Shown: in pieces, positions 26,881 to 45,390 of the stretch
Layout: every line of letters begins with the position of its first letter
Numbering within the stretch: position 1 is the stretch's first letter
NCBI RefSeq assembly: GCF_019879105.1
Contig: NZ_CP082249.1
Coordinates: 248,001 to 312,000 of the forward strand
Source of the DNA: Natrinema sp. SYSU A 869
GTDB lineage: Archaea; Halobacteriota; Halobacteria; Halobacteriales; Natrialbaceae
DNA: 64,000 bases
Reading direction: 5' to 3'
Notes under the pieces: generated by a model
Seen by the model: the letters and a program-made list of their open reading frames with translations, nothing else
Told to the model about the DNA's origin: nothing
Databases searched by the model: none
Made by a program: the position numbers and the translations under genes

Positions 26881-28028
26881 TGGTCGTTCACCTCCCCAGC
26901 GTACTCAACAGCACGCTGTACCGCGTCCTCGAGGGTCTGTTCGACCGTCACGAGGTCCTCGTTCAGAATCTCCATGCCTTCCTCCCAGTTCGTCCCGGCC
27001 AGTCGAACGACGACCGGCTTGGGGATCTCGTCGAACTGCTCGAGCGCTTCGTTGATCCCGCGGGCGACTTCGTCGCCGCGCGTGATGCCACCGAAGATGT
27101 TGAAAACGACCGAATCGACGTTGTCGTCCGAGAACACCATGTCGAGCGCGTTCGCGATGCGGGCGGCCTTCGCGCCGCCACCGACGTCCAGGAAGTTAGC
27201 GGGCTCGCCGCCGTAATGGTCGACCAGGTCGAGCGTCGTCATCACGAGTCCGGCACCGTTGCCGATGATCCCCGTGTTGCCCTCGAGTCGGACGTAGTCG
27301 AAGCCGTACTCGTCGGCCTTCTGCTCGAGTTCGTCGCCGCCGGCGGCTGCCTCTTCCATCTCGGCGAGTTCGGGCTGGCGGAACAGCGCGTCCTCGTCGA
27401 TGTTCATCACGGCGTCGGCCGCGATGACCTCGTCGTCGGCCGTGACCATCAGCGGGTTGATTTCGGCGTCAGCGCCGTCCTTGTCGTCCCAGAGCTGGTA
27501 GAGCGTAGTGAGAACGCTCGAGACGTCGCGGGCGATCGACTGATCGACGCCGGCATCGTAGACGGCCTTGCGGGCCTGATACGGATGCATTCCGAAGGAG
27601 GGATCGATGTGTTCGCGAGCGATCGCCTCGGGGTCTTCCTCGGCGACTTCCTCGATGTTGACGCCGCCTTTGGTCGAGACCATCGCGACGGGCTTGCCCT
27701 CGCCGCGGTCCATCGTGATCCCGACGTAGAGTTCGTTCGTGAAGTCGACCGCTTCCTCGACGAGGACGCGATCGACGTGATACCCCTTCAGGTCCATTCC
27801 GAGGATCTGGGAGGCCGCGTCCCGAGCCTCGTCTGCGTCCTCGACGAGTTTAATCCCGCCGGCCTTCCCCCGGCCGCCGACCTGTACCTGCGCTTTCACT
27901 GCTACTGGATACCCGATCTCCTCAGCCGCGGATACGACGCCGTCGACGTCGGACGCGAGCTGTGAGTCCGGCGTCGGAATCCCGGCATCGGCGAAGACGT
28001 TCTTCGCCTGATACTCATGTAATTTCAT
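26877..28028 (-). CDS. sucC: Succinyl-CoA synthetase beta subunit
   Basis: This 383-residue beta subunit begins [20 protein letters not shown], the ATP-grasp entry. It carries [18 protein letters not shown] for nucleotide binding, [13 protein letters not shown] for metal binding, and [31 protein letters not shown] for contact with the alpha subunit and succinate. Length is normal. It forms the first gene of the sucCD operon. Confidence 0.97.
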
Positions 28029-28401
28029 GCCATTCGAACGGGCGTGCCGACCTTGCTTAAATCCTGCCAGTTTCCACTCGCCACGGGAGATCCATCGACG
28101 TGTATCGACTACACAGGGTGCGTTACCGCCGTACCGTTTTCTAATCTCCCATATTTGTGTTCATTTTCAACCGAAGGTGGGTGTGACCTTCCCGCACGTC
28201 CGGACTCGGTCCCGAATCCCTGCCACGAGTAGTCGTTTTTCCAGTAGTACGAATCCGAGTTACTTCCAGAGAATCGGTTCGGGACCGACACCATCCCACA
28301 TAATTCATCATGTTTCGCGGAATCGCCCGACCGAACGACGGATCGACGGGATCAACGCGATCGACGCAGCATTCAAACGTCTGCCAGCCGCTACGTCCGA
28401 G
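28029..28401. other. Divergent spacer between sucC and UbiA gene
   Basis: This 373-bp region holds promoters for sucCD and the prenyltransferase. An ORF running through it in the UbiA frame is Arg/Ser/Pro-rich and not haloarchaeal in character, so it is not part of the gene. No further structure was recognised. Confidence 0.4.
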
Positions 28402-29289
28402 ATGAGGCGCACCGTCGTGACGAACCCTACCGCAACGCATCGAACGCCGGGTTGGGTGTCATCGATAACGACCGCCCTTCGGTTTCTGGTCCACAGTAAC
28501 CTCTTCATCTCGCTGGCGACGGTCAGCGTCGCCGTCACGACCGCTCTCCTCGCAGATCTCCCGCTCGAGCCCCTGCCGCTGTTTATCGTCTTCGCAGCGA
28601 CGATGTTCGTCTACACCGTCAATCGGTTCACTGACCTCGAGGAAGACGAACAGAACGTGCCACAGCGCGCGGCGTTTACGAAGCAGTACGGGACGCTCTG
28701 GCTCTCCGCGGGGGTCGGCCTCTACGTTGCCGCGGTCGGAGTCGCAGTCGCGCTCGGCCTCCCCGGCGCGGTATACATGTTCCTTCCGCTCGTAGTCGTG
28801 CTCCTGTACTCCGTCGGCGGGGTCAAGCAGCTCTTCCTCGTGAAGAACCTCGTGGTCGGTTTCGCCTGGGGTGCGATCCCGCTAGGCGTCGGCTACTACT
28901 ACGACCGGCTGCTCTCGCCTGAGATCCTGTTTCTCTTCGCTTACATCACGACCATGATCACCATCGCAGCGGTGATCTTCGACGTGAAAGACATCGAGGG
29001 CGACCGCGCGGAGGGGATTCCGACGGTTCCAAACCTGTTCGGCCCGCGCTGGACCCGGGTTCTATCGCTGCTGGCGACCGTCGCCGTCGCCGCGGCGGTC
29101 ATCGCCCTCGTCGGCGGCGGCGTAGTCTCGCGCGAGTTCCTCGTCGTGCTCGCGATGAACGCCTACGTCTGTGCGTACATCCCCTTTGCAACCACCGACC
29201 GCGGCCCGCTGTATTACGGGTTCGTCGTCGACGGCGAACACGTCTTCCTCGCCGCTATCGTCCTCGTCCTCGAGTGGCTGCTCTGGTAA
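28402..29289 (+). CDS. UbiA-family prenyltransferase (membrane)
   Basis: From the ATG at 28402 the 295-residue protein has about eight membrane helices. The first Asp-rich site is in VYTVNRFTDLEEDEQN and the second in IFDVKDIEGDRAEGIPT, the two metal-diphosphate sites of UbiA proteins. They transfer prenyl groups to aromatic or lipid acceptors. In haloarchaea the family covers archaeal lipid, menaquinone, haem and carotenoid synthesis. Nothing nearby identifies the acceptor. The upstream in-frame ORF from 28027 is rejected because it is basic and lies in the promoter region. Confidence 0.85.
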   Translation: MRRTVVTNPTATHRTPGWVSSITTALRFLVHSNLFISLATVSVAVTTALLADLPLEPLPLFIVFAATMFVYTVNRFTDLEEDEQNVPQRAAFTKQYGTLWLSAGVGLYVAAVGVAVALGLPGAVYMFLPLVVVLLYSVGGVKQLFLVKNLVVGFAWGAIPLGVGYYYDRLLSPEILFLFAYITTMITIAAVIFDVKDIEGDRAEGIPTVPNLFGPRWTRVLSLLATVAVAAAVIALVGGGVVSREFLVVLAMNAYVCAYIPFATTDRGPLYYGFVVDGEHVFLAAIVLVLEWLLW

Positions 29290-36220: not shown

Positions 36221-36676
36221 CTACTCCGTCTCGAGTTCGAACTGTTCGTTTTCGGAGACGGCGTTGAGCACAATGCTCGTATTCGACTGATTGATATCGG
36301 GGTCTGTGATCAGCGTCTTGATCTGATCGTTCATGTCGTCCGTGTCCTGGAACTTCCCGATGGCGATCACGTCGTAATCGCCAGTGACCTCGTAGACGGA
36401 AATCATCTGGTGGTGATCCTTCAGCGTTTCCGTAATCTCGGGGAGTGCGTTCCCTTCGGCTTTGAGTTGCATGACGGCGGTCACGTCGTAGCCGACCGCG
36501 TCGTAGTCGATTTTCGGTGTGTATCCCTCGATCACGCCCTCATCCTCGAGATCGGAGAGGTGGTTCGAGACGGTAGTGACGGAGACGTCGAGTTCTTCGG
36601 CGAGGCTTCGCAGACTCGCACGGCCGTCATTGAGCAGTTCGTTTACCAGATCCGAGTCCAAGTGTTCGTAGGTCAT
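36221..36676 (-). CDS. Lrp/AsnC family transcriptional regulator
   Basis: From the ATG at 36676 the protein has 151 residues. The HTH is [53 protein letters not shown]. The C-terminal RAM domain is [21 protein letters not shown] and [18 protein letters not shown], then a short acidic end. Lrp-type regulators sense amino acids and form octamers. Haloarchaeal members act on amino acid and glutamine metabolism; the target here is unknown. An ORF start eight codons upstream is less likely. Confidence 0.92.
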
Positions 36677-36700
36677 TGTCCAGTATGAAGCACTCCTCAT

Positions 36701-37180
36701 ACTAGGGGTTTACGAATATCCAGTTCTATCCGCTTCTATTGAGGTGGTGTTGTGATGTGTACGGACAAGTCGTGCAGAGCTGTGAATTAGTGAAAGAACA
36801 CTGACCCGCTCGCAGATGGCTGCCGGAGACGAACTCCTACGGAGTCACCGAAAAGAGAGTAACGAGGGAGAAATCCGGTCTTTCAATCCATGAAAGAAAA
36901 CGCCCCAAGCGGTGTCAGATGACGGATATTCCTTCATCGCGAACGCATCACACCCTTCTACACCCGTCGCGACCGAGTTCACGGAGACTGACCGTGATGA
37001 GACGGCGTTCTCTCGAGTTCGGAAGACACTCGAGAGTCGTCTGGCTGCGAATCCGTTGAAATATCTGGTGTTTGAATCACATGAAACGCCCGCTATCGCT
37101 TGCGTCTCTCTATTTCAAATCTCAGAACGTGCGCGCTTTTCTCCGCTCCACTCTGCGTTGCTACGTTTCGCTCGAAAAAT
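36701..37180. other. Spacer between Lrp gene and tRNA-Glu, no gene seen
   Basis: About 480 bp without a convincing gene. A plus-strand frame from 36912 runs into the tRNA and is not haloarchaeal in composition. The region next to a tRNA gene would suit an integration site, but I find no integrase or duplicated tRNA end. Confidence 0.45.
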
Positions 37181-37254
37181 GCTCCGTCTGGGATTTGAAC
37201 CCAGGTCATCGGCTCGAAAGGCCGAAATGATTGGCCGGACTACACCAACGGAGC
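37181..37254 (-). tRNA. tRNA-Glu (anticodon TTC)
   Basis: Read on the minus strand, the acceptor stem GCTCCGT pairs with ACGGAGC. The anticodon arm TCGGC-CTTTCGA-GCCGA gives loop CTTTCGA and anticodon TTC (Glu). The T arm is CTGGG-TTCAAAT-CCCAG. There is no intron and the CCA end is not encoded, as usual in haloarchaea. The tRNA also supports glutamyl-tRNA-dependent pathways. Confidence 0.95.
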
Positions 37255-37446: not shown

Positions 37447-38859
37447 TCATTCTCGGTCTCTCCGAAGCGACGAACCGGCAAAGTTCATCGCGAGCTTCCC
37501 TTCGAGTCCGAGCAGATCCACGATCGTCGGCGTTACGTCGGTGGCGTCGACCGATTCCTCGCCCTCGAATGCGGGCGCAGCCGGTCCGCCGAGGCCGAAC
37601 GCCCCGAACGCCGACTCGTCGACGCGGCCGTGGGAGCCGCTGATCTGCGACGCGTCCAGCGAGACGAGCCCCTCGTCGCCGAAGAACAGTTCACAGGGAT
37701 CGAAGCCAGGTTTGGCGTGGATGTCCATCTCGGTCGCGTACGGCGGAGCGTTCGCGCGGTCCGTCCACCAGTAGTACTGGAACCAGCTATCGGGCTCGGC
37801 CACGAGGACAAGTTCGCCCGCGTTCGGGTGGTCGATCCCGCGGTCGGCCTTGGCCGACTCGTCGAGTACGGCGTCGATCCCTTCGAGTCCTGCGAGCGCC
37901 TCCCGAGCGGCGTCGGTCGACCCGTCGATGTAGACGTGTGCGATCTGGTGGTCGACCATAGCGAACGCGTCCGAGGCGGGGAGATTGACGTCGCCGTCGT
38001 CATCCGTCTCGAGGAGGCCGGCCTCGCGGAATGCGCGGTTCGGGAACACCGGGTGGTCGACCTCGTGAAACCCGTACTCGCTGACGAGCGTGAGAACGGT
38101 CTCGTCCCAGCGCTCGGTTTCGGACAGGAAATCGAGAAACGCTGCGAGCAGATCGTCGACGACGGCGAGTTCTTCGTCGAAGGCGTCGCTTTCAGGGCCG
38201 TCGCTCTGGCCAACGTAGTCCAGATGCGGGACATAGATCCACAGCAAATCGGGATCGAACCGGTCGATCGCCTCGCTCGCGGCCGCGAGAATCCAGCGGC
38301 TCCCCGCTTCGTTTGCGCCGGGCCCCCAGTAGTTGTGCAGCGGGAAGTGGTTCAGTTCCTCGCGGAGGTCGTCGTAGAAGCCGTCGGGATTCGTCCAACA
38401 GTTCATCTCGAGGATGTCGTTGTTCTCGTCCTCGATCGGGGACGGCGTGACTGCGACGTCGGCACTCGTGCCGATCAGGTGCTGGAAGTTCAGGACGCCG
38501 GTGGTCAGTCCCGCCTCGTCGCTCGCGGTCTCCCAGAGCCGGTCGCGGCCGTCGCGGTCGCGCTCCCAGAACTCGGCGGCGTCGCGCTCGCGGTCGTACT
38601 CGCCGCTCGAGACATCGCCGTGCTCGCCGGGACTTTGCCCGGTTGCAAGCGTCGTCTGGGCGGGCACCGTGACGGCGGGAAACGGGGGTCGGAGGTTGGT
38701 CACTGACTCGGACGGGAAGAACGACTCGAGGGTCGGCGTTCGCTTGGCGTCGATATGGTGGGGCTGGAGGCCGACGACGTCGAGGACGATCACGCGGTCG
38801 GCAGTGGCAGCCGTCTCGATGGCAGTGGCAGTCGTCTCGGAATTTGTTGAGTCAGTCAT
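37447..38859 (-). CDS. Alkaline-phosphatase superfamily phosphodiesterase (EboF-like)
   Basis: This 470-residue protein has the type I phosphodiesterase/nucleotide pyrophosphatase fold. The first metal and nucleophile region is VIVLDVVGLQPHHID and FPAVTVPAQTTLATGQSPGEHG, where the Thr after VPAQ is the likely nucleophile. Further metal ligands lie in YVPHLDYVGQ (Asp, His), VSEYGFHEVD (Glu, His) and SGSHGRVDES (His). It would hydrolyse a phosphodiester or phosphomonoester. A protein of this family is EboF in bacterial Ebo clusters, and it stands next to inositol-3-phosphate synthase and the EboB/C/E-like genes here. No signal peptide is seen, so it may be cytoplasmic. Confidence 0.82.
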   Translation of the reverse strand: MTDSTNSETTATAIETAATADRVIVLDVVGLQPHHIDAKRTPTLESFFPSESVTNLRPPFPAVTVPAQTTLATGQSPGEHGDVSSGEYDRERDAAEFWERDRDGRDRLWETASDEAGLTTGVLNFQHLIGTSADVAVTPSPIEDENNDILEMNCWTNPDGFYDDLREELNHFPLHNYWGPGANEAGSRWILAAASEAIDRFDPDLLWIYVPHLDYVGQSDGPESDAFDEELAVVDDLLAAFLDFLSETERWDETVLTLVSEYGFHEVDHPVFPNRAFREAGLLETDDDGDVNLPASDAFAMVDHQIAHVYIDGSTDAAREALAGLEGIDAVLDESAKADRGIDHPNAGELVLVAEPDSWFQYYWWTDRANAPPYATEMDIHAKPGFDPCELFFGDEGLVSLDASQISGSHGRVDESAFGAFGLGGPAAPAFEGEESVDATDVTPTIVDLLGLEGKLAMNFAGSSLRRDRE

Positions 38860-38937
38860 CGGTCTCGGTATCGGCGGTGGGGGTGGTGATCATGGTATTT
38901 GGGTGCAATGCGGGAACGGGAAGGCGGACGGTCGTCG

Positions 38938-40152
38938 TCAGCGATACTGCTCGGCGTAGTCGGAGAGCCGATCCAGCTGTCGGGAGAGGTCGTGCTCGTC
39001 CACGCCGATCGGGGCCTTGAAGAACGACGCGAGCTGGGGCTGGAGCCCGCCGTCATCGTGCTTATCGGCGTGGGCGACCAGCCGCACCAGATCGAGGACG
39101 AGCGGCGCGGCCAGCGCGGAATCGGACCCCTCCCAGGTGAACTGCATCTTCATCTCCGTCTCGAGGAACCCCTCGAAGTGGATGTAGTCCCAGGCGGTCT
39201 TCCAGTCGGCCAGCGAGGGCGTGTAGTCGATCCGCACGCGATTGTGGCCGATGTCGGGCAGGATCGAATCGAGCACGTCGCCCTTACTCGCGAGCTTCCC
39301 CGCGGCGTTCGCCTCGTCCTCGAGGACGAGGCCGTCCTTGTTGCCGAGGATGTTGTGGCCTTCCCAGCTCATGACGTGTAGATTTCGGCCAGCGAACATG
39401 GGTGCGAGCGCGGACTTGACGAGCGTCTCGCCGGTCTTCGCGTCGCGTCCCATATGCGGGACTCCGTTTTCGGCTGCGAGTTCGCGGACGCCGCCGAGTG
39501 CGTTGCCCGTGCTCGGCGTGAAATTGACGAACGGGTGGCCGTCGACGATCGCGGCGTAGGCGTAGCAGACGCTCGCCGGGAGATCGCTGTCATCCTCGTC
39601 GATCGCCCGCTCGAGGGCGTCGCGAGTGTCATAGCGCTCCGAATCCGCCAGTTCGGGTTCCGTCGAGGCGACGTTGACAACGACCAGTCGCTCGAGGTCG
39701 TGCGTATCGCGGAAGGTCTCGTAGTCGTCCCGGATCTGGTCGACGACATCTCGGATCGACAGAGCCTCGTCTAATTGTTCGCTCTCCTCGGAGACGGCAG
39801 CACCGCAGTTGACCGCCGTCCCGACTTCGATCCGCTCGTCGATGGCGGCCAGATCGTCGCGGACTGCCTCGAGCGTCTCAGCGTCGGGAACGCCGTTCCG
39901 GTCGCACTGGCGCTCGGCCTGTGCGACCAGCGACTCGGGTTCGATATCGTGGCCGCCGAAGACGAGCCCCTCGACCGGCGGGAGGTCGAGACTCGAGACC
40001 GGTTCGCGTTCCGTGACCATTCCGGTCGTATCGGTCAGTCCCCGGGCGATGGCACGGGCACCGACGATCGACATCGTCGCGACGTTCCCGCGCGCGCCCA
40101 CTAGCCAGACGCCGGTTCGGTCGTCGTCTGTCGGGTCCGTCCCCTGGCTCAT
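38938..40152 (-). CDS. Inositol-3-phosphate synthase
   Basis: From the ATG at 40152 (MSQGTDPTDDDRTGVWLVGARGNVATM) the enzyme has 404 residues. NAD binding is shown by VGARGNVAT and VVVNVASTEPE, and the catalytic lysine region by MGRDAKTGETLVKSALAPMF. A later motif is HNILGNKDGLVLED. It converts glucose-6-phosphate to inositol-3-phosphate, giving cyclitols or inositol lipids. The gene is co-directional with the phosphatase gene and divergent from the TatD-UbiA genes. Its position where Ebo clusters have the EboD cyclase is notable; both enzymes cyclise sugar phosphates. Confidence 0.92.
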   Translation of the reverse strand: MSQGTDPTDDDRTGVWLVGARGNVATMSIVGARAIARGLTDTTGMVTEREPVSSLDLPPVEGLVFGGHDIEPESLVAQAERQCDRNGVPDAETLEAVRDDLAAIDERIEVGTAVNCGAAVSEESEQLDEALSIRDVVDQIRDDYETFRDTHDLERLVVVNVASTEPELADSERYDTRDALERAIDEDDSDLPASVCYAYAAIVDGHPFVNFTPSTGNALGGVRELAAENGVPHMGRDAKTGETLVKSALAPMFAGRNLHVMSWEGHNILGNKDGLVLEDEANAAGKLASKGDVLDSILPDIGHNRVRIDYTPSLADWKTAWDYIHFEGFLETEMKMQFTWEGSDSALAAPLVLDLVRLVAHADKHDDGGLQPQLASFFKAPIGVDEHDLSRQLDRLSDYAEQYR

Positions 40153-40445
40153 CGGGAATCGTCCCGTCTCGACGGCTGGTTGCGCTCGAATTCCGACGTG
40201 CGTCGGTCCCCAGAACCGGTCACACGCCACCGTCCCGCAGCCATCGCTGGTTCGATTGGGAGCATTCCCACGGGAGTGGTAGCCGGACGACTTTCGTTAT
40301 GACTCCCGTAGCGGAAGTAACTCGGTTTTGCCCGGTCGTAACACCGTATTCCGCCGGCGGGTCCAGTTACTGTGCGATCATCAACCTCGAGTTTGTCGGT
40401 CGAACGACCGGCAGCACCAAACCGTCCGCTCGTGGCACGGCCTGT

Positions 40446-41246
40446 ATGCGGATTATCGATCCTCACATGCATATGGTCTCGCGCTCGGCCGACGACTACC
40501 GGCGAGCGCGGCGAGCGGGTATCGAGTGCTGTATTGAGCCCGCGTTCTGGAGCGGTCAGGACAAACACAACGCCGGCTCCTTCTTCGATTACTTCGAGCA
40601 GATCATCGAGCACGAGACTGATCGCGCCGAGCGAGCCGCGGGCATGGACCACTACGTAACGATCGGCCTCGAGCCGAAGGAAGCCAACTACCGCGACATG
40701 GCCGAGGAGGTCGTCGACCGGATTCCGGAGTACCTCGACCGCGACCCCGTCGTCGGCGTCGGCGAGATCGGCTTCGATCAGGTCACCGATGACGAGGAGT
40801 GGGCGTTCCGCCGGCAACTCGAGATTGCCGAAGACCGCGAACTCCCCGTCATTATCCACACACCTCACACGGACAAGCCGTCGGGCACCGAACGCATCGT
40901 CGAGATCATTGAGGAGATGGGCGTCACGCAGGAGCGGATTATCATCGATCATAACACCGAAAACACGATCGATATCTCGACGCGGACGGACTGCTGGATC
41001 GGCTTCACGCTCTACCCCGGGAAGATCGAGACCGAGTCGGCGATCGACCTGCTTGAGGAGCACGGAACCGATAACATGATCTTCAACAGCGCCGCGGACT
41101 GGGACCCCTCGGACCCGCTGGCGGTGCCCAAAGCTCGTGATACGATGCTCGATCGGGGCTGGGACCGCGAGGACGTTCGAAAAGTCGTCTTCGAGAACCC
41201 CTACGAGTTCTTCGACCAGTCGCCGAACTTCGACTACGAGGCCTGA
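40446..41246 (+). CDS. TatD-family metal-dependent hydrolase (EboB-like)
   Basis: This 266-residue protein starts at ATG 40446 with MRIIDPHMHMVSRSADDYRRA, the first metal-binding HxH. The barrel continues with VGEIGFDQVTDDEEW (a Glu ligand), VIIHTPHTDKPSGTERI (His) and RIIIDHNTENTID (a His). TatD proteins are metal-dependent hydrolases; EboB is a TatD member of Ebo clusters. The substrate is unknown. The stop is two bases from the next start, so it begins a tight operon with the TIM-barrel and UbiA genes. Confidence 0.85.
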   Translation: MRIIDPHMHMVSRSADDYRRARRAGIECCIEPAFWSGQDKHNAGSFFDYFEQIIEHETDRAERAAGMDHYVTIGLEPKEANYRDMAEEVVDRIPEYLDRDPVVGVGEIGFDQVTDDEEWAFRRQLEIAEDRELPVIIHTPHTDKPSGTERIVEIIEEMGVTQERIIIDHNTENTIDISTRTDCWIGFTLYPGKIETESAIDLLEEHGTDNMIFNSAADWDPSDPLAVPKARDTMLDRGWDREDVRKVVFENPYEFFDQSPNFDYEA

Positions 41247-41248
41247 CG

Positions 41249-42079
41249 ATGCAGTTTGGCTTCTCCACCAACGCCTTCCGAGAGTACCAACTCGAGGACG
41301 CCATCGAGGCCATCGCCGACGCGGGCTACGACGGTGTCGAACTGCTGCTCGACGAACCCCACCTCTATCCGCCTGACTGCACCGACGGGGAACGCGAGCG
41401 CGTCGAGGAGGTCCTCGACCGGCACGACATCGCCGTCAGCAACGGCAACGCATTCATGCTGACCGCGATCGAAGGCTTTCACCACCCCTCCTATATCGAA
41501 CCCGACGAAGAGTACCGACAGCAGCGGATCGATTACACCCTCGCGGCGCTCGAGACCGCGGCCGACCTCGATCTGCCATACATCTCGATCGAACCCGGCG
41601 GGCCGATTCCCGACAGTAAATCCCGCGAGTGGGCGATGGACACCTTCGTGGATAGTCTCGAAGACATCATCCCGAAAGCCGAGGATCTCGGCGTCGACCT
41701 GCTCGTCGAGCCCGAACCCGACCTACTGATCGAGACCGCAGACGAGTTCCTCGCACTCCTCGACCGGGTCGGCTCCGAGCGCGTGCGGTGTAACTTCGAC
41801 GCGGGCCACTTCTACTGCGTCGGCGAGGACCCGGCCGAACTGGTCGAGACTCTCTGGGACCACACGAGTCACTACCACCTCGAGGACATCCCGGCCGACC
41901 GGACGCACGAGCACACCCAGCTCGGCGACGGTGAGATGGACATCGACGCGTTCCTCGGCGAACTCGAGAACCGGGGCTACGACGGCTTCGTCACCGTTGA
42001 GCTCTACCCCTACGAGGAGACGCCGATCGAAACCGCGCGGGAAGCGATGGCCTACCTTGAGGAACGCGGGTGGGCGTAG
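41249..42079 (+). CDS. Sugar-phosphate isomerase/epimerase 1 (EboE-like TIM barrel)
   Basis: This 276-residue AP-endonuclease-2-type TIM barrel begins MQFGFSTNAFREYQLEDAIEAIADAGYDGVELLLDEPH. Metal-site residues include Glu in LLVEPEPDLLIE, RVRCNFDAGHFYCV (Asp, His), HYHLEDIPADR and a final FVTVELYPYEETP. Such proteins isomerise or epimerise sugars and cyclitols. EboE has this fold. It starts two bases after the TatD gene and is followed after one base by the UbiA gene, an operon with strong coupling. A second paralogue lies at 43591. Confidence 0.88.
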   Translation: MQFGFSTNAFREYQLEDAIEAIADAGYDGVELLLDEPHLYPPDCTDGERERVEEVLDRHDIAVSNGNAFMLTAIEGFHHPSYIEPDEEYRQQRIDYTLAALETAADLDLPYISIEPGGPIPDSKSREWAMDTFVDSLEDIIPKAEDLGVDLLVEPEPDLLIETADEFLALLDRVGSERVRCNFDAGHFYCVGEDPAELVETLWDHTSHYHLEDIPADRTHEHTQLGDGEMDIDAFLGELENRGYDGFVTVELYPYEETPIETAREAMAYLEERGWA

Positions 42080-42080
42080 G

Positions 42081-43064
42081 GTGGCCGGCGGCGTGTCGTC
42101 GGATCGAACCGAGAACGCGGATACGGTCGATACCGTGAGCGAACCCGGGATGGAGAACGATCGCGGGCCGACCCTCGGTGCGTTCGCAGAACTGGTCCGC
42201 GCGCCGAACCTCTTTACTGCGCCACCGGACGTGATCCTCGGGGCCGCGTTGGTGACTATCACCGGTGCTGATCCGGTTCCGAGCACTGTTGCCGGGCTCG
42301 CGACCGCCTCCGTCTGCCTCTATGCTGGGGGAACGACACTCAACGACGCCTTCGATGCTCCGATCGATGCTCGAGAGCGGCCCGAGCGTCCGATTCCGTC
42401 CGGTCGCGTCTCTCGGCGCGGCGCGTTCGGGTTCGGATTCGCGCTCTTGTTCGCCGCCGTGGGAATCGCGTTCGCCGTTGCGGGCGGACCGGCCGCCGTC
42501 GCCGCCGGGCTGGTCGCCGTCGCGATCGTCGTCTACGACGGCCTCCTGAAAGGGACCGCCGCCGGCTTCCTCGCGATGGGGACGACGCGCGGGCTGAACG
42601 TCGTCCTGGGCACGACCGCGGCCGGGGGTGTGATACTCGAGTCGCCGATTCAGTTGCTCGCCGTTCCCGCCGTCATCACCGGCTATATCGCTGCCGTCAC
42701 GGCCATGGCGGCTCGAGAAACCGAGGGCAGCAATCGGGGTGCCGTCGCGGTCGCCACCGCAGGTGCGATCGCGGCGGTGCTCGCCGTCGGCTGGTTCCTC
42801 GCGAGCGTCGATCCGGCCACGCTCGAAACGATAGTCGCGATCATGTTCGCCGCCGCGTTCTGCTGGTGGGTTGAGCGTCCCCTGCGAGCCACGTACGCCG
42901 ATCCGGTGCCGGGTACCATCGGTCCAGCGGTCGGCGCATGCGTCCTCGGGCTCGTCTTGCTCGATGCGACCTTTGCCGCCGCCGTCGGTGTTCGCTGGGG
43001 GCTCGCTGCTGGCGTCTTCTTCGTACCGGCGGTCGGCCTCGCTCGCATCTTCGACGTGACATGA
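42081..43064 (+). CDS. eboC: UbiA-like prenyltransferase, EboC type
   Basis: About 327 residues from the GTG at 42081, one base after the previous stop; the ATG at 42150 (MENDRGPTLG) is an alternative. The N-terminal helices follow ELVRAPNLFTAPPDVILGAAL. The first Asp site is GGTTLNDAFDAPIDARERPERPIPSGRVSRR, with the characteristic NDxxD and RPIPSG of EboC-like UbiA proteins. Eight or nine helices follow. The second site VAIVVYDGLLKGTAAGFLAMGTTRGLNVVLG has a less typical Asp pattern. EboC is predicted to prenylate or transfer a cyclitol-type precursor at the membrane. The product is unknown. Confidence 0.82.
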   Translation: MAGGVSSDRTENADTVDTVSEPGMENDRGPTLGAFAELVRAPNLFTAPPDVILGAALVTITGADPVPSTVAGLATASVCLYAGGTTLNDAFDAPIDARERPERPIPSGRVSRRGAFGFGFALLFAAVGIAFAVAGGPAAVAAGLVAVAIVVYDGLLKGTAAGFLAMGTTRGLNVVLGTTAAGGVILESPIQLLAVPAVITGYIAAVTAMAARETEGSNRGAVAVATAGAIAAVLAVGWFLASVDPATLETIVAIMFAAAFCWWVERPLRATYADPVPGTIGPAVGACVLGLVLLDATFAAAVGVRWGLAAGVFFVPAVGLARIFDVT

Positions 43065-43590
43065 CTCCCAAGAGGGGTGGCGCGCTGGCAGCCGACCGAG
43101 TGACAGCAAGGGTGGCCGACAGTCTCGTGCGAGGCCTTCGCGAACATGTGTGCGAAGGCGCGTGGAAGACGCGACGCGTCTTCCCGTGGATGAGCGAGCG
43201 CCGTTAGGCGTGAGCGTTAGCGCGGAACCAGGGTTCTGCGAGCAGTCGAACGGATGCGACGCACCCGTGAGACGACGGTTTCACCGTCCCACAGCGCCCG
43301 TGAGGAGAAATCGGGTGGAGAGGGTCTGGTGTCCTAGTTGCCGCGTAAGCGGGACAGCTCTGTTCGCATTCTAATCATGCAATACCAGAGAAAACGAGAA
43401 AACTCCCTACTCTGGGTTCGGTCATCGACTCACCGCAGCCCAGCGCGCGCCACCGCACGGAGGGCACGTAGGTACCCATGGTATCGTCCGATGCTCTCAC
43501 CGACTCGACGATTTCGAGCAGTTTCTGCCCCTCGTTCGAGAGTGACGGGCCAATGAATTAGTGGCACTTCGGTGTACGAGGTCCAGATCG
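43065..43590. other. Spacer inside the Ebo-like cluster with two hairpins
   Basis: This 526-bp stretch has no supported gene. It contains tandem inverted repeats: GCCTTCGC / GCGAAGGC at 43134-43159 and GGAAGACGCG / CGCGTCTTCC at 43164-43184. Part is purine-rich and low in coding bias. It may be an insertion scar, a small RNA or both. It separates the EboB-E-C operon from the second TIM-barrel gene, which probably has its own promoter. Confidence 0.5.
43134..43184. repeat. Two adjacent inverted repeats
   Basis: The first has an 8-bp stem with a 10-base loop. The second is a perfect 10-bp inverted repeat around one base (43164-43184). Both could fold in RNA or mark a mobile-element end. No matching transposase is present. 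Confidence 0.55.
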
Positions 43591-44451
43591 ATGGTCGAAC
43601 TCGCCTTCTCGACGAACGCGTACACGCAATATGATCTCCCTGACGCAATTCGCCGGATCGCCGACCACGGCTATGCCGGCGTCGAACTTCTCGGTGATGA
43701 GCCCCACGCCTACTTCCCCGAATTCGACGACGACGACCGCGACGCCGTCCTCAAGGCCCTCGAGGAGACCGGTCTCGCCGTCTCGAATATCAATGCGAAT
43801 ACGGCGATGGGGTACTACGACGACGCGCCGCCGTCGGCCTTCTTCGAACCGAGCGTGATCCGTGCCGACGACGAGGCCCGCGAGTGGCGCGTCGAGTACA
43901 CGAAGCGGGCGATCGACCTCGCGGAGGCGGTCGACTCGCCGGCAGTCTGCCTGGCGACCGGCCGCCCGCTACCGGGAACGATGCCCGAGGAAGCCCACGA
44001 CTATCTTCGCGGGTCGCTCCACGAAATCCTCGACTACGCCGAGGCGCGCGATATCGAGGTCGGCATCGAGTTCGAACCCGAACTGCTGATCGAGAACACT
44101 GAGGAGGTACTCGAGTTGATCGATGAAATCGGTCGGGACTCGCTCGGCATCAATCTCGATGTCGGACATGCCGCCGTCTACGGCGAGGACGTCGCGGAGA
44201 GCATCCGCGCCAGCGCCGGCTCCATCACGGGCGTCCACCTCGAGGACATCGTCGGCGGCCGCCGGGGGAAACACTACCACCGGATCCCCGGCGAGGGCGA
44301 CCTCGAGTTTCGTGAAATCTTCAACGCGCTCGCGGACATCGGCTACGACGGCTTCGCCACGCTGGAACTCTACACCTATCCCGACGAACCCGACTGGGCG
44401 GCACGGGAGGCCTACGAGGCACTCGAGGCGTACGTTTCTAGTAGCCACTGA
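43591..44451 (+). CDS. Sugar-phosphate isomerase/epimerase 2 (TIM barrel)
   Basis: From the ATG at 43591 the protein has 286 residues: MVELAFSTNAYTQYDLPDAIRRIADHGYAGVELLGDEPH. It is clearly related to the gene at 41249 (shared FSTNA, GYxGVELL, EPH). Metal-site residues appear in VGIEFEPELLIE, LGINLDVGHAAVYG (Asp, His), GVHLEDIVGG and FATLELYTYPDEP. It differs in loops, and GRPLPGTMPEEAH replaces the other's IPDSKSREW, so the substrate may differ. It probably belongs to the Ebo-like cluster. Confidence 0.87.
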   Translation: MVELAFSTNAYTQYDLPDAIRRIADHGYAGVELLGDEPHAYFPEFDDDDRDAVLKALEETGLAVSNINANTAMGYYDDAPPSAFFEPSVIRADDEAREWRVEYTKRAIDLAEAVDSPAVCLATGRPLPGTMPEEAHDYLRGSLHEILDYAEARDIEVGIEFEPELLIENTEEVLELIDEIGRDSLGINLDVGHAAVYGEDVAESIRASAGSITGVHLEDIVGGRRGKHYHRIPGEGDLEFREIFNALADIGYDGFATLELYTYPDEPDWAAREAYEALEAYVSSSH

Positions 44452-44652: not shown

Positions 44653-45390
44653 ATGAAATACGTCCGCTTTCGCGACCCGGCCGGTGCAGCCCGCCGCGGC
44701 GAGTACGAGAACGAGATGGTTCACTTCGCGAACGAGAGCTACGCGCTCGAGGATGACGATATCGACGTCCTCCCGCCCTCGGAACCCTCGAAGATCGTCT
44801 GTATCGGACGCAACTACGCCGACCACGCCGACGAGATGGGGTCGGACCTGCCCGACCGACCGCTGCTCTTCCTGAAGCCGCCGAACGCGCTCGCGGGTCA
44901 CGGCGACACCGTCACCGCGCCGGCCGGGAAAGATCGGATCGACTACGAGGCCGAACTCGGCGTCGTCATCGGCGAGCAGTGTCGCCACGTCCCCGAAGCC
45001 GACGCGATGGACGTCGTCGAGGGCTTTACCTGCCTCAACGACGTGTCGAATCGCGAGGACCAGAATCAGGAACAGAACTGGATTCGCGGCAAGGCGTTCG
45101 ACGGGGCCGCGCCGGTGGGACCGGTGCTTGCGACCCCCGACGAGGTACCCGACGACGCGTTCGTCCGATCGCGGGTCAACGGCGAACTCAAGCAGGACGG
45201 CTCTCGCGAGCAACTCATCTTCTCGATCCCCGAACTGATCGCCGAGATCACGACCTACCTCACCTTAGAACCTGGCGACGTGATCGCGACCGGAACGCCC
45301 GAGGGCGTCGGCCCACTTTCCGACGGCGACGAGATCGAAATCGAAGTCGAAGGCGTCGGCACGCTCGAGCACTCGATCCGACTCCCCTAA
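44653..45390 (+). CDS. Fumarylacetoacetate hydrolase family protein
   Basis: This 245-residue protein has the FAH catalytic domain. KIVCIGRNYADHADEMG opens it. DYEAELGVVIGEQCRHV gives the metal-binding Glu pair, followed by FTCLNDVSNREDQ (Asp) and GKAFDGAAPVGPVL. The end has PGDVIATGTPEGVGPLSDGDEIEIEVEGVG. FAH-family enzymes are hydrolases, decarboxylases or hydratases of acylpyruvates and related compounds in aromatic breakdown. Substrate cannot be set by sequence. It precedes the MBL gene by about 40 bp. Confidence 0.92.
   Translation: MKYVRFRDPAGAARRGEYENEMVHFANESYALEDDDIDVLPPSEPSKIVCIGRNYADHADEMGSDLPDRPLLFLKPPNALAGHGDTVTAPAGKDRIDYEAELGVVIGEQCRHVPEADAMDVVEGFTCLNDVSNREDQNQEQNWIRGKAFDGAAPVGPVLATPDEVPDDAFVRSRVNGELKQDGSREQLIFSIPELIAEITTYLTLEPGDVIATGTPEGVGPLSDGDEIEIEVEGVGTLEHSIRLP

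Follow-up and report, generated by a model that had tools for sequence, protein, structure and literature searches.

A haloarchaeal Ebo-like gene block with inositol-3-phosphate synthase in the place of EboD, and its proposed prenyl-cyclitol product

We asked what a block of six genes in the haloarchaeon Natrinema sp. SYSU A 869, similar to the bacterial Ebo clusters but with another cyclase, might make. Ebo genes occur in many bacterial phyla and in some algal plastids, and they are needed for scytonemin export. The standard eboABCDEF cluster of Cyanobacteria, Bacteroidota and others has homologues of EboB, EboC and EboF in common with the haloarchaeal block. It also has EboA, EboE and the DHQ-synthase-like cyclase EboD, whereas the haloarchaeal block has inositol-3-phosphate synthase (MIPS) for EboD, no EboA that we could find, and two TIM barrels shorter than EboE. 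The reading that we favour, by a modest lean, is that the haloarchaeal cluster is a MIPS-type Ebo that makes a membrane prenyl-cyclitol (inositol-type), a carrier or cofactor. In the window (the whole 64,000-nt stretch of DNA that was analysed) the six genes lie at 37447-44451, two on the minus and four on the plus strand. All six were found where the sequence-only reading had placed them, and domain profiles matched their families. They are listed here with one neighbour from outside the core:

37447..38859, minus strand: EboF-type protein with a PF01663 fold and a degenerate zinc site (PF01663, 166 bits)
38938..40152, minus strand: MIPS, in EboD's place (PF07994, 172 bits; PF01658, 112 bits)
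40446..41246, plus strand: EboB-type TatD/amidohydrolase (EboB alignment, 432 bits)
41249..42079, plus strand: TIM1, xylose-isomerase-like TIM barrel (PF01261, 160 bits)
42081..43064, plus strand: UbiA-superfamily prenyltransferase of the Ebo group, EboC/SCO3242 type (NF035940, 198.5 bits; NF045897, 168.9 bits)
43591..44451, plus strand: TIM2, second xylose-isomerase-like TIM barrel (PF01261, 150 bits)
44653..45390, plus strand: fumarylacetoacetate-hydrolase-family (FAA) neighbour, outside the core (PF01557, 237 bits)

The tight packing described for the TatD, TIM1 and UbiA genes was confirmed, with gaps of 2 bases (TatD-TIM1) and 1 base (TIM1-UbiA). The start codon of UbiA is uncertain (GTG at 42081; later candidates at 42093, 42135 and 42150). 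The end of UbiA and the start of TIM2 are 526 bases apart, thus a common transcript is not required in this genome. The haloarchaeal character of the window is apparent from a halobacterial Lrp regulator at 36221-36700. A tRNA-Glu gene (37180-37254) adjoins EboF; we rejected a tRNA-linked integrated island, as no second copy of the tRNA-Glu end was present within the window.

Is this gene order kept in other haloarchaea? A search with the EboC model gave 18 strong UbiA loci (175-198 bits) in 17 of the 145 genomes of the order. None of the eight further sampled genomes of the window's own genus had this UbiA, therefore its distribution is patchy. Several copies are plasmid-borne, and the block is present on four haloarchaeal plasmids. 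TatD, TIM1 and UbiA were contiguous in all 18 loci, and TIM2 lay directly 3' of UbiA in 13 of them and nearby in four, the copy of genome G024 being on another contig. MIPS and EboF adjoined TatD in 13 of the 18 loci (11 with the divergent pair in place; two more, in G046, with the pair at the ends of other contigs beside the TatD start), so in related haloarchaea these two genes are not usually elsewhere. Carriers of the cluster include the culturable Halocatena salina and Natronococcus sp. CG52. The exceptions to this arrangement were G142, with the MIPS-EboF pair ∼8 kb from the TatD operon, G062 and G075, with the pair elsewhere in the genome, G024, with MIPS alone and away from the TatD operon, and G063, in which EboF but no MIPS was detected. 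The separation of MIPS from the TatD operon in 4 of 17 genomes and the lack of a detected MIPS in G063 count against the MIPS-type Ebo reading. Nevertheless, the association of the genes in the haloarchaeal block is far beyond chance. To a chance neighbourhood of unrelated genes, which would fit MIPS and EboF running divergently and sharing no operon with the others, we give practically no credence: the block is conserved in several haloarchaeal families and has counterparts in bacteria, and these neighbourhoods already refute it.

Only the six core families are widely kept in the flanks across genera. A relative of the FAA hydrolase, for example, lies beside the cluster or the MIPS-EboF pair only in L025, L032, L083 and L084. 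This bears on the idea that the locus is an island for sugar or cyclitol breakdown, in which epimerase-type TIM barrels would act alongside hydrolases and exported PQQ sugar dehydrogenases while UbiA had an unrelated role. PQQ glucose/sorbosone dehydrogenases, FAA hydrolases, Gfo/Idh/MocA oxidoreductases and sugar ABC transporters do occur near some copies, and the PQQ glucose/sorbosone dehydrogenases are more numerous in cluster genomes (mean 5.8 versus 1.6). However, these neighbours differ between loci while the six genes are constant, and neither MIPS, which makes cyclitols, nor UbiA, which prenylates, is catabolic. We therefore regard a breakdown island as very improbable.

MIPS converts glucose 6-phosphate to inositol phosphate. 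The window protein has the NAD-binding and cyclase domains and the catalytic Lys/Asn set of this class, and in an alignment it keeps the equivalents of A. fulgidus N255, K274, K278, K306 and K367. The closest solved structure is A. fulgidus mIPS (1u1i, 1.6e-85). In a tree that took in few bacterial non-Ebo MIPS, the haloarchaeal proteins grouped with actinobacterial Ebo and planctomycete MIPS, apart from the A. fulgidus type (98/96). The MIPS of Gemmatirosa formed a long branch of uncertain place outside the haloarchaea-actinobacteria clade, which counts against our preferred reading. Among haloarchaea MIPS (PF01658) is a rarity, present in 19 of the 145 genomes: 16 of the 17 with the UbiA versus 3 of the 128 others (Fisher p ∼2e-17, kinship between genomes being ignored). 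Two of these three (L078 and L079) have a distant type with ∼30% identity over 200 residues, and in the third (L080) the MIPS is a related one, without EboF. Glycosyltransferases adjoin a similar MIPS that is carried on a Halomarina plasmid.

Could MIPS simply supply ordinary inositol head groups, such as that of archaetidylinositol, and merely lie near Ebo-like genes? MIPS is common in other archaea, myo-inositol-derived polar-lipid head groups are known in haloarchaea, and the H. volcanii MIPS homologue HVO_B0213 has been discussed in that connection (PMC8305020). The inositol phospholipid synthesis of A. fulgidus shares with our system the MIPS family and its catalytic residues, but A. fulgidus mIPS falls outside the haloarchaeal MIPS clade, and the cluster and MIPS loci, 634 kb in all, showed no CDP-alcohol phosphatidyltransferase motif (a search run without a positive control). 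Moreover, the rare haloarchaeal MIPS tracks the cluster, is closer to the MIPS of actinobacterial Ebo clusters than to that of Archaeoglobus, and stays paired with EboF even when relocated (G142, G062 and G075). A head-group role is therefore improbable, and genome distribution together with the tree excludes a housekeeping MIPS as the main reading.

The exchange of EboD for MIPS, seen as archaeal in the sequence-only reading, proved to be wider: MIPS-type Ebo clusters are also present in Actinomycetota and Gemmatimonadota. On Streptomyces plasmids a single run comprises MIPS, an SCO3242-family prenyltransferase, a TIM barrel, EboA, TatD, EboE and EboF, and a check of these families confirmed them. 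The set also occurs in Nonomuraea and a further Streptomyces, where a TIM-barrel ORF of ∼500 residues appears to be fused to EboA; such a fusion has been noted for Actinobacteria (PMC5133447). SCO3242 and the myo-inositol phosphate synthase SCO3243 of S. coelicolor have been listed with the CDA cluster (PMC3610822). Actinobacterial Ebo clusters (for example that of Streptomyces sp. NBC_01563, L041) share with the haloarchaeal ones MIPS, UbiA, an extra TIM barrel, EboB, EboF and the lack of EboD. Unlike the haloarchaeal clusters, they form one continuous single-strand run and add EboA (sometimes apparently TIM-barrel-fused) and a true EboE. Gemmatirosa has EboE, EboG, TatD, EboF, UbiA, MIPS and a TIM barrel. 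The Pirellulales planctomycete L112 has the TIM barrel-UbiA-TIM barrel-EboF run in common with the haloarchaea (L137 has TIM barrel-UbiA-EboF), and its first TIM barrel is 43% identical to TIM1; it differs in that an EboG-type TatD is nearby on the opposite strand and that its MIPS, 44% identical to that of the window, lies outside the cluster.

In bacteria, MIPS and EboD excluded each other. The Ebo clusters of Streptomyces, Nonomuraea, Embleya and Gemmatirosa had MIPS without EboD, while those of Aureibacter, Mycetohabitans, Ketogulonicigenium, Deinococcus and Azospirillum had EboD without MIPS. When the accession lists for EboB, EboD and MIPS were compared, the 50 EboB plasmid records listed comprised 16 with EboD, 32 with MIPS, two with neither and none with both. 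A scan of EboB on genome contigs (EboD at 26 loci, MIPS at none, and neither cyclase within 9 kb at 54) supports exclusivity weakly, because planctomycete EboG-type relatives dominate it. Thus the claim that MIPS holds the cyclase slot is upheld by a swap seen repeatedly, both in haloarchaea and in the Ebo clusters of bacteria.

The assignment of UbiA to the EboC type was likewise borne out. The tree placed the haloarchaeal UbiAs with SCO3242-type, planctomycete and Aureibacter/Acidobacteria EboC proteins (97/96), as a clade of their own near the SCO3242 family, and put the eight other UbiAs of the window's genome outside the Ebo group. A single clade of all Ebo-cluster UbiAs was not firmly supported (74/15). 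The window UbiA scored 198.5 bits with NF035940, below the cut-off of 250; the EboC proteins of the EboD-bearing Mycetohabitans, Ketogulonicigenium, Deinococcus and Azospirillum clusters scored only 80-110 bits with the same model. With the SCO3242-family model (NF045897) it also stayed under the cut-off (168.9 versus 260 bits), in contrast to the actinobacterial UbiA, which exceeded it (349 bits). The NDxxDxxxD motif, Tyr52 and Arg141 were invariant across the group. The structural model of the window UbiA (pLDDT 93.5) had DGGGP synthase as its nearest fold (6m31, Foldseek E 2.6e-7), an enzyme that prenylates a hydroxyl.

The main rival to our reading concerns the acceptor of this enzyme. In such a two-branch pathway, UbiA would prenylate an acceptor, aromatic or otherwise, that has no connection with MIPS, and MIPS would provide a separate inositol part or a side branch. 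According to the available part of the paper describing it, Ubi-297, the one homologue of EboC for which we found in-vitro work, farnesylates quinoline acids, including 8-hydroxyquinoline-2-carboxylic acid, and cyclitols are unmentioned in that part (PMC9235831). The invariant Tyr and Arg of the window UbiA appear to match the residues discussed there, and by analogy the quinoline-acid activity would count against a cyclitol acceptor. However, no aromatic biosynthesis gene is kept beside the haloarchaeal clusters, and the strict either-EboD-or-MIPS pattern argues for a central cyclitol. On balance we consider a two-branch pathway unlikely, though the most serious competitor.

The protein called an EboF-like phosphatase in the sequence-only reading kept the first half of its name and lost the second. 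In a tree built with a quick method it joined the bacterial EboFs, apart from seven PF01663 paralogues of its own genome, and its AlphaFold model (pLDDT 83.5) has an NPP/ENPP fold. An NPP-type site comprises two zincs held by three Asp and three His, plus a Thr nucleophile. We set the EboF ligand sites by alignment to Xanthomonas NPP and the genomic paralogues, with what we take to be the NPP zinc-ligand numbering. In the window protein D54 is replaced by V, H214 by Q, D257 by E and H258 by Y, while T90, D210 and H363 are kept. Four of the six ligands were replaced in all 37 aligned EboFs (14 haloarchaeal and 23 bacterial, so that the loss is common to standard Ebo as well), all of which keep the Thr, one Asp and one His; in the PF01663 paralogues of the window's genome the ligands were mostly retained. 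With its two-zinc site incomplete, EboF falls outside the NPP/alkaline phosphatase-type phosphodiesterases and, judged by these residues, does not look like an ordinary phosphatase, which counts against the MIPS-type Ebo reading. In the 2016 Ebo paper EboF figures as a putative hydrolase, and the words zinc, active site and catalytic residues are not used there (PMC5133447).

The remaining core proteins retain their active sites. The window TatD is 44-46% identical to Streptomyces and Aureibacter EboB and scored 432 bits in the EboB alignment, versus at most 180 for archaeal TatDs outside the cluster-bearing haloarchaea; its metal-site residues are invariant. TIM1 keeps the metal-site pattern E156, D184, H210 and E251, and TIM2 also keeps the Glu-Asp-His-Glu pattern. 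TIM1 was sister to a planctomycete TIM barrel adjoining a similar UbiA, in a tree that includes paralogue ORFs of doubtful frame and was used for this link only. Score (23.9 bits for TIM1) and length ruled out either barrel as EboE. In profile searches of the 17 cluster genomes, EboE (NF035939) never scored above 31 bits (cut-off 250), no EboA exceeded the NF035938 cut-off (best 14 bits) and no match to the DHQ-synthase family of EboD (PF01761) was seen; the absence of eboA and eboD noted for the window thus extends to the whole genomes. As haloarchaea lack EboA and EboE, part of the Ebo set is missing or replaced in them, a further point against the MIPS-type Ebo reading.

What would the MIPS-type Ebo make? 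We infer the order of the enzymes, the acceptor, the product and its role in transport as follows. UbiA enzymes transfer prenyl chains, and the known reactions of xylose-isomerase-like barrels are the isomerisation, epimerisation or dehydration of sugars and cyclitols. MIPS would turn glucose 6-phosphate into a myo-inositol phosphate, which would stand in for the presumed cyclitol of EboD. Remodelling of the cyclitol by isomerisation, epimerisation or dehydration, and hydrolysis would probably fall to the two TIM barrels together with the TatD-like amidohydrolase. For EboF, binding or transfer of a phosphorylated group is probable, in contrast to a normal two-zinc phosphatase. The cyclitol, or a derivative of it, would then be prenylated by the EboC-type UbiA, probably with a geranylgeranyl chain. 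Held in the membrane, the prenyl-cyclitol could serve as carrier or cofactor, in line with what has been proposed for the part of Ebo in scytonemin export. Taken together with the known chemistry, the either-EboD-or-MIPS rule is most simply read to mean that every Ebo cluster needs one cyclitol, whichever cyclase supplies it, and that this cyclitol or a derivative is prenylated. A cyclitol-plus-prenyl product is thus plausible, and other lines of reasoning had already led to the proposal of such a product or carrier for Ebo (PMC5133447, PMC6282210). A prenylated cyclitol also fits the lipid-carrier model put forward for Nostoc (PMC6282210). Only tentatively, as a possibility we hold doubtful, would we extend this to Ebo in general as a modular prenyl-cyclitol lipid route with EboD and MIPS interchangeable, in which haloarchaea with the cluster make an undescribed prenyl-inositol ether that serves in the membrane as carrier or cofactor, possibly in exported halocyanin-PQQ sugar oxidation.

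Neither an archaeal Ebo cluster nor the MIPS swap is described in the Ebo, Streptomyces and haloarchaeal literature that we found (subscription papers lay outside the search). MIPS-type Ebo is a variant common to haloarchaea, Actinomycetota and Gemmatimonadota, and the EboF residue pattern suggests that this protein is not the phosphatase it was formerly named. That MIPS, with its known reaction, takes the place of the uncharacterised EboD in these groups supports the view that the pathway centres on a cyclitol, and it points to a likely one. MIPS-type Ebo organisms thereby permit feeding with labelled inositol, an approach that the standard Ebo organisms do not offer.

In several of the compared loci (L numbers), PQQ glucose/sorbosone dehydrogenases recurred in the flanks of the cluster, and several of these cluster-adjacent enzymes carried a cupredoxin/halocyanin domain together with a Tat signal.

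PQQ glucose/sorbosone dehydrogenase genes adjoining the cluster
L026, 10012-12087
L031, 9979-12048
L029, 6674-8488
L038-L040
L085, 3324-5516
L044, 18642-20789
L045, 19921-20786

When kinship was ignored, the mean number of copies of this dehydrogenase family per genome was 5.8 in cluster-bearing genomes versus 1.6 in the others. In the window, no PQQ glucose/sorbosone dehydrogenase was found close to the cluster. Two other features of the window were recorded:

37180-37254, tRNA-Glu (TTC) gene, directly adjoining the cluster
28027-29289, second UbiA-family gene, adjoining a pair that resembles succinyl-CoA synthetase genes

No repeated copy of the tRNA-Glu end was found within the window, and the second UbiA fell outside the Ebo group in the UbiA tree.

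We also observed inositol-3-phosphate synthase (MIPS) genes apart from the other cluster genes. In a planctomycete, the gene order at L112 (11103-15130) was TIM barrel-UbiA-TIM barrel-EboF and MIPS was present at a separate place in that genome (L178); the two loci together are a possible further MIPS-type variant. For H. volcanii HVO_B0213, row 7b of the table in PMC8305020 gives inositol-1-phosphate synthase references and the comment 'adenylate kinase', which is apparently a table slip. Among haloarchaea, Ebo-clade MIPS without an adjoining EboF or UbiA occurred at L080 (genome G083), L087 (genome G098) and L089, a Halomarina sp. BND7 plasmid. On this plasmid MIPS was flanked by glycosyltransferases and an oxidoreductase, neighbours which suggest a second inositol-related role in haloarchaea.
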